Of a stretch of DNA of 64,000 bases, positions 35,568-39,451 are shown in pieces. This DNA is from Akkermansiaceae bacterium (GTDB lineage: Bacteria; Verrucomicrobiota; Verrucomicrobiia; Verrucomicrobiales; Akkermansiaceae), in NCBI GenBank assembly GCA_017798145.1, contig CP059069.1:3953226-4017225 (forward strand). The letters run 5' to 3'. Each line of letters starts with the position of its first letter. Position 1 is the stretch's first letter. The translations under genes were made by a program, and so were the position numbers. Below the pieces are notes generated by a model. That model searched no databases. It was given only the letters and a program-made list of their open reading frames with translations, and was not told the origin of the DNA.

Positions 35568-37934
35568 CTATCGGAACTTCAATCCTTCCAGTTTTCCAAT
35601 GGCATCCAGGATGGTCTTGTGTGCGGCATCGATTTCCGGGGTCTTCAGTGTGCGCTCAGGGGCACGGTAGTGGAAACGATAGGCGATGGATTTGCGGTCG
35701 GCGGCGATTTTTTCACCGGAGGGATCCGTGAAAATGGTGACGCATTCGTAGGAGGCCAGGAGGGGTTCTGCGGTTTTTTCCAAGATGGACTCGATGGATG
35801 CATTGGGGGTGGCGATGGGGAGTTCCAGGGCTGCATCGCGGGAGGAGCCGGGGAATTGCGGTAGATCGGAGACTTGGAAGCTGCGTGAGACGAGCTTGCG
35901 GAGCTTTCCGAGATCCAGCTCTGCGACGAAGACCGGGTGATCGAGGTCCAGCTCACGTTCGCGTGAGGGTAGGAGGCGGGCGAACACGCCGATGGTCTGG
36001 TCACCGGCCTTGATCTCCGCGGCGAGTGCGAAGTTTTCACGATCCTTGGGTTTGAGGGAAATGGGGTGGCCGGGAAGGAGGGCTGAGAGGATGGCCTTGG
36101 CATCGTAGGAATCCGCCGCTTGTTCTTTTTTTGCCCACGAGGGCGGAGTGGTGGGGCCGGAAATGAGGATGGCGAGCGTGTCGCTTTCCTGATCTTTGGC
36201 CTTGCCGCCGCCTGCGTTCCGGAATGCGCGGCCCATCTCGAAGAGGCGGAGGGACTTGGCCTGCTGGCGGGCGTTGCGGGCGGCAGATGCGACCAAACCG
36301 GGTACGAGGCTGGGGCGCATGATCGCGTGATCCTCGCTGAGGGGAGATTTCACGCGGATGAGATCGCCGTCCTGGAGGGGGCGGAGGGGGAGGATGTCGG
36401 TGAGCTGGTTTTCGGAAATGAGCTTGATGGTCTGGCACTCGTAGAGGCCGAGCGCGGCCATGCGGCGGCGCAGTATCATGTCTGCATCGTAGGCGGCATC
36501 CGTCTCGCTGATCGGCACGAAGGTTCCGAGGAGGCGGGAGGGAACGTTTGCGAGGCCGTGAACCCGGGTGATTTCCTCCGCGAGATCGATGTGGCGGGAG
36601 AGATCCTGGCGGAAGGATGGGATGGCCCATTTTCCTTCGGGGAGTTTTGTTAGGCCTAGGCGGGTTAGGATTTCCTCGGCGGCTTCGGTGGTGGTGGAGT
36701 TGCCGAGGAGGTGATGGAGGCGGGGAAGATCGAGAGAGACGGGAGAGGGGAGAGGGGGGAGATTTCCTGCGGTTTGGATTTCGGCTGCGTTCGCGGCGAT
36801 GAGTTTGATCGCGAAAGCCGCTGCGGGCAACACGCCTGCCGGATCGATTCCGCGCTCGTAGCGGTAGGATGAGTCGGAGGAAAGGGCGGTGCGGCGTGAG
36901 GTGCGGCGTATGCCGGATGGAGTGAAGTACGCCGACTCTAGTAGGATAGTGGTTGTGCTTTCCGTGACTCCGCTGTCGAGGCCGCCCATGACGCCGGCGA
37001 GGGCGAGGGCTGCGCCTGATTGGTCGGAGATGAGAAGATCTTCCGGTGTGAGGGTGTGTACGGATTCATCGAGGGCGGTGAATTGCTCGCCATCGTTAGC
37101 CTGACGGATGACGAGTGGGAGGCAGACCTTTGCGGCATCGAAGGCGTGGAGCGGTTGGCCGGTCTCGTGGAGGATGAAGTTGGTGATATCGACGATGTTG
37201 TTGATGGGGCGCAGGCCGATGGAGGTGAGGCGTTCCTTGAGCCAGGCGGGGGATTCTCCGACGCTTATCCCATCGATGCGGGTGGCGGTGTAGAACGGGC
37301 AGGAATCCGGGGCTTCGAGTTTTATGAAATCTTCCTTCGCCGGGGCGCTGTTTGCCTCTGCTGATTTTGCTGAGATAAGAGGTGTTTTGAGGAGTGTTGC
37401 CAACTCGCGAGCCATGCCTGCATGGGAGAGCAGGTCTGGGCGGTTCGGGGTGACCTCGAGTTCTAACAGGACGTCGGAATCGAAGAGGGTTTTCACCGGG
37501 ACACCGATGGGGGAGTCATCGGGGAGGATGAGGAGGCCGTCCTCGCCTTTGGGGAGGCCGATTTCCTCCGCTGCGGCGAGCATACCTTTGGACTCGACGC
37601 CGCGCATCTTGGTTTCGCCGATGACAAAACCGCCGAGGTCGGCTCCGGGGAGGCAGCAGGGAACCTTGTCGCCGACCTTGTAGTTTTTCGCGCCGCAGAC
37701 GATCTGGCGGAGTTGGCCTTCGCCGGCATCGACCTGGGTGACCTTGAGTTTATCTGCATCCGGGTGCTGGACGGCCTCCATGATCTGGGCTACGACAATT
37801 TTCTCCGAGGATATGCCCTTGGTGACGATGCCCTCCACCTCGACGCCGGCGAAGGTGAAGAGGTCGGAGATTTCGGCGATGGATTTGCCGGAAAGGTCGA
37901 GGTGGGTGGAGAGCCAGTTTAGGGAGATATTCAT
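35568..37934 (-). CDS. pheT: Phenylalanine-tRNA ligase beta subunit
   Basis: The product has 788 residues, the usual length. It starts MNISLNWLSTHLDLSGKSIA at the ATG at 37934. Visible domains are the tRNA-binding/EMAP-like domain (VAQIMEAVQHPDADKLKVTQ, about 40-150), B3/B4 editing domain (about 200-390; TATRIDGISVGESPAWLKER, NNIVDITNFILHETGQPLHA), B5 (about 400-470), the catalytic-like core and the C-terminal ferredoxin-fold anticodon-binding domain (SFQVSDLPQFPGSSRDAALE). With PheS it charges tRNA-Phe. In most bacteria pheT follows pheS closely; here a 476-base GxxExxY unit sits between them. Confidence 0.97.
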   Translation of the reverse strand: MNISLNWLSTHLDLSGKSIAEISDLFTFAGVEVEGIVTKGISSEKIVVAQIMEAVQHPDADKLKVTQVDAGEGQLRQIVCGAKNYKVGDKVPCCLPGADLGGFVIGETKMRGVESKGMLAAAEEIGLPKGEDGLLILPDDSPIGVPVKTLFDSDVLLELEVTPNRPDLLSHAGMARELATLLKTPLISAKSAEANSAPAKEDFIKLEAPDSCPFYTATRIDGISVGESPAWLKERLTSIGLRPINNIVDITNFILHETGQPLHAFDAAKVCLPLVIRQANDGEQFTALDESVHTLTPEDLLISDQSGAALALAGVMGGLDSGVTESTTTILLESAYFTPSGIRRTSRRTALSSDSSYRYERGIDPAGVLPAAAFAIKLIAANAAEIQTAGNLPPLPSPVSLDLPRLHHLLGNSTTTEAAEEILTRLGLTKLPEGKWAIPSFRQDLSRHIDLAEEITRVHGLANVPSRLLGTFVPISETDAAYDADMILRRRMAALGLYECQTIKLISENQLTDILPLRPLQDGDLIRVKSPLSEDHAIMRPSLVPGLVASAARNARQQAKSLRLFEMGRAFRNAGGGKAKDQESDTLAILISGPTTPPSWAKKEQAADSYDAKAILSALLPGHPISLKPKDRENFALAAEIKAGDQTIGVFARLLPSRERELDLDHPVFVAELDLGKLRKLVSRSFQVSDLPQFPGSSRDAALELPIATPNASIESILEKTAEPLLASYECVTIFTDPSGEKIAADRKSIAYRFHYRAPERTLKTPEIDAAHKTILDAIGKLEGLKFR

Positions 37935-37950
37935 GGTGATGGAGAGATTT

Positions 37951-37978
37951 GAACCGCCAAGACGCCAAGTGCGCCAAG
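37951..37978 (+). repeat. Left inverted repeat of the pheS/pheT insert
   Basis: The 28-base repeat starts GAACCGCCAAGACGCCAAGT and contains the heptamer CGCCAAG three times. It matches the reverse complement of 38399-38426 at 27 of 28 positions. It ends 16 bases upstream of the pheT start. Confidence 0.85.
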
Positions 37979-37997
37979 GAAGAAAAGGGTTTTGCAA

Positions 37998-38387
37998 CTA
38001 GGATTCCTTGAAGTTGTTGGCGATGCGCTTGATGCCGTTTTTGATTAGGACGGTGTTGAAGTTGATGAGAAAACCGAGGGTTTTTTCTGATAGCCTCAGG
38101 TAGGTCATCAGTTGGGCGTGGTGGATGGGTAGAATCTGCTCCACTGCTTTAAGTTCGATAATGATGGAGTCATTTACGAGGAGATCGAGGCGGTATCCTA
38201 TGTCGATGAAAGTGTCGTCGTAGTGAACGGGTTGAGGAATCTGGCGATCCACTTTGAGTCCGCGTTTTTTCAGCTCATGAGCTAGGCAAGCTTCATAGGC
38301 ACTCTCAAGTAATCCGGGTCCTAGTTTGGTGTGAACCTTGAAAGCACAGTCAACGATCACGGATGCAATCTCATCAATCGTATTCAT
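37998..38387 (-). CDS. GxxExxY-family protein, PD-(D/E)XK nuclease-like
   Basis: The 129-residue protein carries the family signature in KLGPGLLESAYEACLAHELK (Gly-x-x-Glu-x-x-Tyr, about residues 24-30), followed by YRLDLLVNDSIIIELKAVE, where Asp and Glu-x-Lys are spaced as in PD-(D/E)XK nucleases, and HHAQLMTYLRLSEKTLGFLI. The biochemical role of GxxExxY proteins is not established. The gene fills an inverted-repeat-bounded insert between pheS and pheT, on the same strand as both. Its AT content is visibly higher than that of the flanking genes, consistent with acquisition. Confidence 0.88.
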   Translation of the reverse strand: MNTIDEIASVIVDCAFKVHTKLGPGLLESAYEACLAHELKKRGLKVDRQIPQPVHYDDTFIDIGYRLDLLVNDSIIIELKAVEQILPIHHAQLMTYLRLSEKTLGFLINFNTVLIKNGIKRIANNFKES

Positions 38388-38398
38388 AGGATTAGAAA

Positions 38399-38426
38399 CT
38401 TGGCGAACTTGGCGTCTTGGCGGTTC
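38399..38426 (-). repeat. Right inverted repeat of the pheS/pheT insert
   Basis: On the minus strand this reads GAACCGCCAAGACGCCAAGT then TCGCCAAG, differing from the left copy only at the base after the first 20. It starts eight bases beyond the pheS stop and 12 bases upstream of the GxxExxY ATG. Confidence 0.85.
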
Positions 38427-38434
38427 GAAATTCT

Positions 38435-39451
38435 TCAGGCGAACTGCGAGAGGAAGCGGATGTCGTTTTCTATCAGGAGGCGGATGTCCTTGATGCCCCA
38501 GCGGATCATGGCGAGGCGGTCCAGACCCATGCCGAAGGCGTAGCCGGTTAGGGTTGCGGGGTTGAGGGCTTTGTCCTTGCGGGTGGCGTTGATGGCTTCG
38601 AAGACGGCGGGATCGACCATGCCGCAGCCGGCGACCTCGATCCAGCGGGCGGGCTGGCCTTTGACCTGGAGTTTCACGTCGATCTCGAAGGACGGCTCGG
38701 TGAAGGGGAAGAAGTGGGGGCGGAAGCGGACTTCGGTGGTGGTGCCGAACATTTCCCGGAAGAAATATTCGAGGGTGCCTTTGAGGTCGGGGAGAGTGAC
38801 ATCGGTATCGACGTAGAGGCCTTCGAGCTGGTTGAAAACGGAGAGGTGTGTCGCATCGATTTCATCGCGGCGGTAGGCGGAGCCGGGGGCGATGATGCGG
38901 ATGGGCGGGGTGGCGGTCTCCATGGTGCGCACCTGGACGCTGGAGGTGTGGGTGCGGAGTAGTTTTCCGGAATCGAAATAGAAGGTGTCCTTTTCGTTGC
39001 GAGCCGGGTGGTCGGCGGGGGTGTTGAGCGCGTCGAAGCAATGGAACTCGTCCTCGATCTCCGGGCCATCGGCGAGGGCGAAGCCCATGCGCCGGAGGAT
39101 CTGGATCGCCTCGTCGCGGATCTGTGTGAGGGGATGGAGGGCACCGGTGGGGAGGGCGCGGGCGGGGAGGGTGATGTCGGTGCCGGACAGGGCGGCGCTG
39201 TCTGCGATGGACTGCAGGACGGATTGCTTGTCGTCGAGGGCGGTGGTGATGGCGGTGCGCGCGGCGTTGAGGGACTGGCCGAAGGCGGCTTTTTCCTCGT
39301 TGGGGATGTCCTTGATGAGGGTGCCGGCCAGGGAGAGTGAGCCTTTTTTTCCGAGGACGGCAACGCGGGCGTCCTCAAGGCTGCGCGGATCGCTTGCGGC
39401 GGCGATGAGTTCTAGGGCTTGTGTCTGGATGGAGGCGATCTGCTCGTTCAT
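38435..39451 (-). CDS. pheS: Phenylalanine-tRNA ligase alpha subunit
   Basis: The 338-residue product has an N-terminal coiled-coil tRNA-binding region (about 1-85) and the class II catalytic core. Motif 2 lies in SAYRRDEIDATHLSVFNQLE; RFRPHFFPFTEPSFEIDVKL and the final GYAFGMGLDRLAMIRWGIKD (motif 3) are diagnostic. Start is the ATG at 39451 (MNEQIASIQTQALELIAAAS); the open frame extends upstream to 39604 without similarity. It forms the alpha2-beta2 enzyme with PheT. Confidence 0.97.
   Translation of the reverse strand: MNEQIASIQTQALELIAAASDPRSLEDARVAVLGKKGSLSLAGTLIKDIPNEEKAAFGQSLNAARTAITTALDDKQSVLQSIADSAALSGTDITLPARALPTGALHPLTQIRDEAIQILRRMGFALADGPEIEDEFHCFDALNTPADHPARNEKDTFYFDSGKLLRTHTSSVQVRTMETATPPIRIIAPGSAYRRDEIDATHLSVFNQLEGLYVDTDVTLPDLKGTLEYFFREMFGTTTEVRFRPHFFPFTEPSFEIDVKLQVKGQPARWIEVAGCGMVDPAVFEAINATRKDKALNPATLTGYAFGMGLDRLAMIRWGIKDIRLLIENDIRFLSQFA

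Follow-up and report, generated by a model that had tools for sequence, protein, structure and literature searches.

In the 64,000-nt stretch of DNA from an Akkermansiaceae bacterium analysed here (contig CP059069.1; the window), pheS and pheT are separated by a gap of 503 nt. It is occupied by a 476-nt unit in which a single GxxExxY gene is enclosed by two inverted arms of 28 nt each, with one mismatch between them (27 of 28 identical; Table 1). Three copies of the heptamer CGCCAAG are found in each arm at spacings of 8 and 9, and the arms extend outward into a looser 39-nt pair. This architecture, as described in an earlier sequence-only reading, is confirmed. Nine inverted pairs (at least 22 nt, no more than 700 nt apart) occur in the 64-kb window, and none of the others is as long or as complementary as these arms; among 54 window genes tested, the GxxExxY gene is the only one with flanks reaching an inverted match score of at least 32.

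Table 1. Positions of the unit, its borders and related features (window coordinates unless given as C1, own genome).
Feature	Position	Strand	Remarks
Whole inverted-arm unit, 476 nt	37951..38426	-	orientation is that of pheS and pheT
Upstream arm (5' of gene)	38399..38426	-	GAACCGCCAAGACGCCAAGTTCGCCAAG on gene strand, 3x CGCCAAG
Downstream arm, inverted	37951..37978	+	GAACCGCCAAGACGCCAAGTGCGCCAAG on + strand
Outer, looser extension of downstream arm	37940..37950	.	part of 39-nt pair, 87% complementary
Outer, looser extension of upstream arm	38427..38437	.	overlaps pheS stop codon
GxxExxY gene, 129 aa	37998..38387	-	E28, D68, E78, K80, Q92xxxY96
pheT, host gene, downstream border of slot	35568..37934	-	PheT profile TIGR00472
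pheS coding region minus stop codon, upstream border of slot	38438..39451	-	PheS profile TIGR00468
Split metH of own genome	C1:1146159-1147742		L002/L111 (genus loci L364-L393)
In-frame solo arm, PurL-like linker	C1:236987		L007
In-frame solo arm, Mfd-like linker	C1:320168		L009

The window protein belongs to the GxxExxY family, as shown by its matches to PF13366 (4.5e-43, 146.8 bits, cut-off 22) and TIGR04256 (5.3e-44, 149.3 bits, cut-off 35). Its only Pfam match, PF13366, is a PD-(D/E)XK family and not a tyrosine (HUH) transposase. The GxxExxY and PD-(D/E)XK residues are G25, E28, Y31, D68, E78, K80, Q92, and Y96, of which E28, D68, E/D78, and K80 are jointly kept in 102 of 104 protein rows, six of 110 proteins outside 100-175 aa having been left out. 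The nuclease-like residues noticed in the sequence-only reading are borne out by the conserved centre and the predicted fold, which is PD-(D/E)XK-like with a mean pLDDT of 94.2. The top VIA structural match is 4ic1 SSO0001, which we take to be a Cas4 (Z 9.4, rmsd 4.4, 100 aligned; only moderately above the background of the tool), followed by 3ijm (Z 8.1), and by restriction-like, Hjc, Cas4, and RecB-type chains together with some unrelated chains at Z 5.5-7.4. Foldseek with the predicted fold returned no match below E 0.001. The protein resembles the Cas4 and RecB-type nucleases, for which QxxxY is a characteristic PD-(D/E)XK motif, in its conserved D, E/D-x-K, and QxxxY as well as in the match to 4ic1. 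It differs from Cas4 in that the PADLOC Cas4 profile gives only a weak match (E 0.045, 47 residues) and in that no sequence relative was found in the PDB. Because of the conserved centre and the predicted fold, we describe the GxxExxY protein as a predicted nuclease with a restriction/Cas4-like fold.

The closest named relatives of the window protein are Akkermansiaceae-type records. In open-access PMC text, we found neither a stated function for GxxExxY proteins nor a mention of PDDEXK_3. According to one report, a cas4 gene called beside an RT gene by CRISPRone is a GxxExxY domain in the authors' own pipeline (PMC8934634).

Recurrence, orientation and turnover at slots

Five GxxExxY places occur in the 4.39-Mb genome to which the window belongs, and all five are surrounded by inverted arms. 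Two of the genes are open (the window gene and L002), two contain one in-frame stop each, and one is split in two. The two stop-containing genes, L003 (C1:2926964) and L004 (C1:1649649), are related copies in which the stop lies inside QxxxY; by eye, TAG stands at Q in one and TAA at Y in the other, four codons apart, and the losses appear to be independent. All five pairs of arms share the same build, an AACC-like outer end followed by tandem 7-10-mers, with the motifs CGCCAAG, CGC(A/G)GAG-like, CACGGAT (twice), and CGCGAAT.

The same arrangement is widespread among relatives. PF13366 matches were found in 35 of 41 same-genus genomes, and inverted arms surround 86 of 105 genus loci with a median score of 47, compared to 18 for controls, at a threshold set by the 95th percentile of mismatched flank pairs (5% reach it). 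The 110 genus loci were drawn from 141 matches, of which about 30, mostly weak or partial and one full-length (G059), were left out, and five of the 110 were set aside for a short flank or partial gene. In the phylum, PF13366 matches are present in 69 of 145 genomes, and 24 of 28 usable loci, which are best matches and not a random draw, carry inverted arms (one of 29 left out). The 80 best-scoring GxxExxY loci of public genomes come from many bacterial phyla, including, by record titles, Verrucomicrobia, Planctomycetes, Bacteroidota, Cyanobacteria, Chloroflexi, Acidobacteria, Ignavibacteria, and others. Together with five viral loci, two of the 85 being left out, 62 of 83 usable loci pass the arm test, again among best-scoring loci and not a random draw, and several public loci under the threshold show the same heptamers by eye. 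The five loci on viral contigs were obtained with an alignment query, a single-protein query returning none, and four of them have inverted ends of another look: those of L331-L334 are A/T-rich and unlike heptamer arms, and L332 and L333 share their ends.

Throughout, the arms are mostly tandem 7-10-mers with a motif that varies among units, and both arms of one unit match. The sequence-only reading is supported in that like units lie at many other places, and does not hold as stated in that the motif is private to a unit type and is not one sequence. In open-access PMC literature, no PD-(D/E)XK protein inside matched private heptamer arms was found, and searches by arm strings and combined terms retrieved nothing on topic.

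The units show a strong bias in orientation. With one representative per slot, 29 of 30 callable upstream neighbours and 24 of 27 downstream ones share the strand of the unit, compared to 47 of 69 co-directional cases when the same rule was applied to window genes. Strands were called by a simple open-frame and GC3 rule, and uncallable sides (16 upstream and 19 downstream of 46) were set aside. The bias, strongest toward the gene in front, was also shown by the phylum set (17 of 18 upstream, 18 of 21 downstream) and by the public genome set (56 of 61 upstream and, as a slight excess, 48 of 64 downstream). Thus, the units seem to ride in the transcripts of their neighbours.

The pheS-pheT slot was examined in the 27 of 30 pheS loci that read through to pheT, three without a readable pheT being left out. 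A GxxExxY unit is present in eight (one with an internal stop, one without the downstream arm), a decayed GxxExxY gene with both arms in one, a gene-less hairpin in three, a four-helix-bundle gene with its own arms in three and a decayed one in two, other short repeat text in four, and a gap of at most 41 nt in six. Empty sites, which had been proposed as something to look for, do therefore exist in relatives, and the slot is not specific to the GxxExxY unit: in some relatives a four-helix-bundle gene, with different arms, is found there. Three close species, whose pheS DNA is 93.5-95.3% identical, show three different states, one holding the unit (499 nt), another a gap of 10 nt with nothing in it, and the third a CGCAGAT-arm hairpin (167 nt). 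The outer right flank is common to the unit-bearing and hairpin-bearing species while their arms are unlike; the slot content seems to have been replaced on the spot or, at the empty site, may alternatively have been lost. Neither a target duplication nor an exact insertion junction was recognised at the pheS-pheT junctions read. The gaps of L028, L032, L045, and L047 are short and contain other tandem words (e.g. CAAGACA, GATCAGACAGATC-like), which are perhaps further gene-less arm types.

Slots were defined by a stricter clustering of flanks, a lenient version having put 105 of 110 loci into one cluster. The largest common slot lies between the two halves of a split MetH, the homocysteine-methyltransferase part and the pterin-binding part. 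Among its 30 loci, 20 have a GxxExxY match in a gap of at least 424 nt, two have a shorter decayed one, and eight have none. MetH is split in all 30 genus loci by a stop after the first part, with or without a GxxExxY unit. In the genome G019, the protein in the metH slot falls inside the pheS-pheT clade (support 100/100; inner branch 97/91) and its unit has CGCCAAG arms, which are of the pheS-pheT type; therefore, gene and arm type moved together. An apparent second, decayed inter-slot case was seen by eye in G027. Other candidates for movement were not counted. L171 and L174 are in different flank clusters, yet their upstream flank appears common by eye. The DNA of L157, L159, L166, and L177 is 88-92% alike where compared, and L157 and L177 share one flank cluster; the remaining flanks seem dissimilar, but the junctions are obscured by nested hairpins and contig ends.

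Two explanations bear directly on these observations. A single gene in inverted ends, empty sites, and one inter-slot move would also be produced by an ordinary cut-and-paste transposon whose transposase is the GxxExxY protein and whose terminal repeats are the arms. This is very unlikely, as insertion blind to direction does not agree with the strong co-direction (29 of 30 and 24 of 27), the arms differ among unit types, no target duplication was recognised at the pheS-pheT junctions read, and high-identity paralogues are absent, the best pair within one genome reaching 74% nt identity. The other explanation, a static, vertically inherited gene between operon hairpins (terminators or mRNA stabilisers) that are unlinked to the protein, would account for the many units that are positional orthologues and for hairpins without a gene. 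It appears highly improbable because no window gene but this one, out of 54, has such flanks, the type of arm goes with the type of protein from slot to slot, and four-helix-bundle genes have arms of another style.

Retention, arm change and dispersed arms

In seven slots, synonymous sites are near saturation (mean pS 0.72-0.80), with pN/pS of 0.21-0.36 and, where measurable, slot-median dN/dS of 0.09-0.22. Since many units reside at common slots across species with saturated synonymous sites, movement is rare. The suggestion that the window unit is a small transposable or homing unit stands in part: gene and arms behave as one unit and a slot change occurred in G019, but many units are old residents of common slots.

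Arms of one unit tend to change jointly. Average arm likeness across species is 70-99% in the same slot, 60% between slots, and 54% after shuffling. In the metH slot, the two arms of a unit agree better with each other than with the opposite arms found in other species (312 of 342 comparisons, p 4e-6), and so they do in pheS-pheT (53 of 72, p 0.03), slot 2 (p 0.004), and slot 4 (p 0.03), whereas the advantage was not significant in slots 3, 5, and 6 of the seven slots tested. When the own partner arm was compared with the same-side arm of the closest species, the own arm was better in six of 18 metH and none of eight pheS-pheT elements. Across different slots, protein similarity correlates with arm similarity (rho 0.22, p 0.001). 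Template switching between inverted repeats could change both arms jointly without any nuclease.

Arms also occur outside the units. The window's own genome contains 61 matches to the AACC-heptamer pattern, compared to two in a backward control, of which nine fall, by position, in the four other units. Seven of 30 arm loci examined have an inverted partner no more than 300 nt away, with loops of 25-90 nt; two of the seven are at the L004 unit, and the remaining 23 are below the score line. The idea that arms are confined to the GxxExxY unit is contradicted by dispersed solo arms and gene-less hairpins, an outcome that the sequence-only reading had named as refuting its interpretation. Two solo CGCCAAG arms lie in frame in protein-coding genes, in a linker before the GATase_5 domain (PurL-like) and before the TRCF domain (Mfd-like), and a third in a PriA-like frame named by eye only. 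They recall the protein-coding palindromic elements of Rickettsia. The Mfd-like gene has two different arm types side by side.

Over 41 genomes, there are 1975 arm-pattern matches compared to 169 in controls. With kinship and genome completeness ignored, arm density correlates with the number of GxxExxY matches (Spearman 0.51, p 7e-4). The six genomes that lack the GxxExxY gene have a lower density (p 0.003, again uncorrected), and with four-helix-bundle matches there is no clear correlation (rho 0.28, p 0.08). An apparent excess of CGCCAAG arms where a CGCCAAG unit is present is not claimed here; its p value rose from 0.036 to 0.12 when two unit arms each were subtracted. This comparison involved 12 genomes with the unit, including the decayed G025, the CGCGAAG-armed G020, and the moved G019 unit, and 29 without it. 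In G017, 66 CGCCAAG double-heptamer matches, several of them clustered, were found and no intact CGCCAAG unit; they may represent an amplified array.

This distribution invites comparison with the REPIN-RAYT system, in which RAYT genes are flanked by inverted REPs. Its published descriptions report a low-copy, long-retained gene, dispersed repeat singlets and hairpin-forming inverted doublets, and repeats that are commoner where the gene is present (PMC3116915, PMC8049555). The singlets, doublets, and retained low-copy gene have their counterparts here. The differences are that REPIN-RAYT has a tyrosine (HUH) transposase where GxxExxY belongs to a PD-(D/E)XK family, and that GxxExxY arms consist of tandem heptamers, with several unit types per genome placed co-directionally between genes. 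In a domesticated system of this kind, the host would keep the nuclease mainly for some task that it performs on hairpin DNA, and gene-less hairpins would be copied slowly as a by-product. The long stay at common slots with low dN/dS, the dispersed inverted doublets and solo arms, and an arm density that rises with gene number, the six gene-less genomes having the lower density (kinship and completeness again ignored), are consistent with it. We consider it unlikely, as presence at each slot is patchy, copies decay, and the matched-motif excess did not survive correction.

DNA-level and RNA-level readings of the arms

The main rival is an RNA-level intervening sequence, in which base-pairing of the arms within the operon mRNA would form a stem, RNase III or a similar enzyme would cut it, and the unit would leave the message, the protein being a passenger or acting on the RNA stem. 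The window unit is strikingly close in build to the Coxiella 23S rRNA intervening sequence, which is 428 nt long, has a 28-bp stem with a bulge and one mismatch, carries tandem heptamers ahead of its ORF, and is excised by RNase III (PMC4990558). Both elements have about 430-480 nt, inverted ends of about 28 bp with one mismatch, heptamers, and one small ORF. In addition, genes of the 23S-IVP family with heptamer-like arms use the same pheS-pheT slot in three relatives, one protein of which (L038) was confirmed by profile. The two differ in that the window unit lies between the protein genes pheS and pheT and not in 23S rRNA, in that the intervening sequence carries an S23p (23S-IVP) ORF where the window ORF is a PD-(D/E)XK-type GxxExxY gene, and in that gene-less copies and solo arms of the present units are dispersed.

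Other evidence divides between RNA and DNA. As RNA, the window unit is more stable than 100 shuffles (z -6.3), which shows only that a stem is possible, and its co-direction with neighbours also agrees with an element acting in the transcript. If selection maintained the stem in sense RNA, G-U mismatches should exceed A-C mismatches; this found no support, as the counts on the sense strand in three sets of arms are 77 versus 108, 21 versus 27, and 54 versus 59 (pooled, 152 versus 194), the first set running the opposite way (p 0.03). Arms are also found alone and in frame inside the PurL-like and Mfd-like proteins, and the protein retains its PD-(D/E)XK nuclease centre. The lack of a G-U excess and the free-standing arms speak for a reading at the DNA level, and we regard the RNA-level element as doubtful.

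We tentatively favour, at slightly less than an even chance, a homing-like, operon-riding nature for the window unit, which would belong to a widespread class in which the nuclease targets its own arms. In such a unit, read-through from the gene in front would transcribe the nuclease gene, and the two inverted arms, with tandem heptamers private to the unit type, would be the DNA recognised by the nuclease, whether double-stranded or folded into a hairpin in single-stranded DNA. Arms or hairpins elsewhere, at a different slot or in a different cell, would then be cut by the nuclease, and repair from a unit-carrying copy would install or swap the unit between the arms. Gene-less hairpins and solo arms could be non-autonomous or decayed relatives of the unit.

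Support for this homing-like reading comes from the link between protein and arms, movement together with arms, private motifs, and turnover at fixed slots, which favour action on DNA. It comes also from the recurrence of arms in the genus, phylum, and public sets against one of 54 window genes, from the matching of own arms in four of seven slots with an arm type that follows the protein across slots, and from the dispersed arms, kept catalytic residues, low dN/dS, and co-directional neighbours. It is weakened because many units are shared between species at the same slots, no target duplication was recognised at the pheS-pheT junctions read, the matched-motif excess has a p value of 0.12, and G017 has 66 arm matches with no intact CGCCAAG unit found. 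The non-significant slots 3, 5, and 6, the same-side arms of the closest species, which are often as similar, and a co-direction that also fits an RNA-level element weaken it further. Homing endonuclease units are comparable in having a nuclease-type gene at a defined slot and empty alleles in close relatives. They differ in that the present unit does not lie in an intron or intein, an unrelated gene also uses its slot, and it has inverted arms of its own, which the predicted nuclease would cleave.

The PD-(D/E)XK gene in private arms has no counterpart in the open-access literature searched, while the build is known from intervening sequences and the logic from REPIN-RAYT. The same kind of box in many phyla, appearing and vanishing at the same spots, suggests an unrecognised operon-riding mobile unit, and the arms around most copies, which match, tend to change jointly, and can move with the gene, give each GxxExxY protein an obvious test substrate. 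It is possible, although we would not call it probable, that GxxExxY genes form an unrecognised phylum-spanning mobile class, whose Cas4/RecB-like nuclease targets for homing, within operons, the hairpins formed by its own private heptamer arms; gene-less hairpins would be its non-autonomous partners, and the 23S-IVP units a parallel branch with the same architecture. If so, what is known as the 23S rRNA intervening sequence would represent a single, special landing site within a general system, and one testable picture would connect orphan PD-(D/E)XK proteins and dispersed AACC-heptamer repeats with 23S intervening sequences.

The four-helix-bundle genes were followed in the same genus. PF05635 genes are present in 39 of 41 genomes, and 27 of 30 fetched loci have inverted arms of another style, by eye mostly words with a 7-nt period; their neighbours are on the same strand in every callable case (22 of 22 upstream, 18 of 18 downstream). 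In view of such arms and of same-strand neighbours throughout, elements that ride in operons may be a general kind to which the 23S intervening sequence belongs. None of the 30 fetched loci, which do not include the pheS-pheT ones, lies in a GxxExxY slot cluster, so that sharing of a slot by the two families was observed at pheS-pheT only. The four-helix-bundle (23S-IVP) genes of L027, L038, L044, and L081-L110 are mostly enclosed in period-7 inverted arms.
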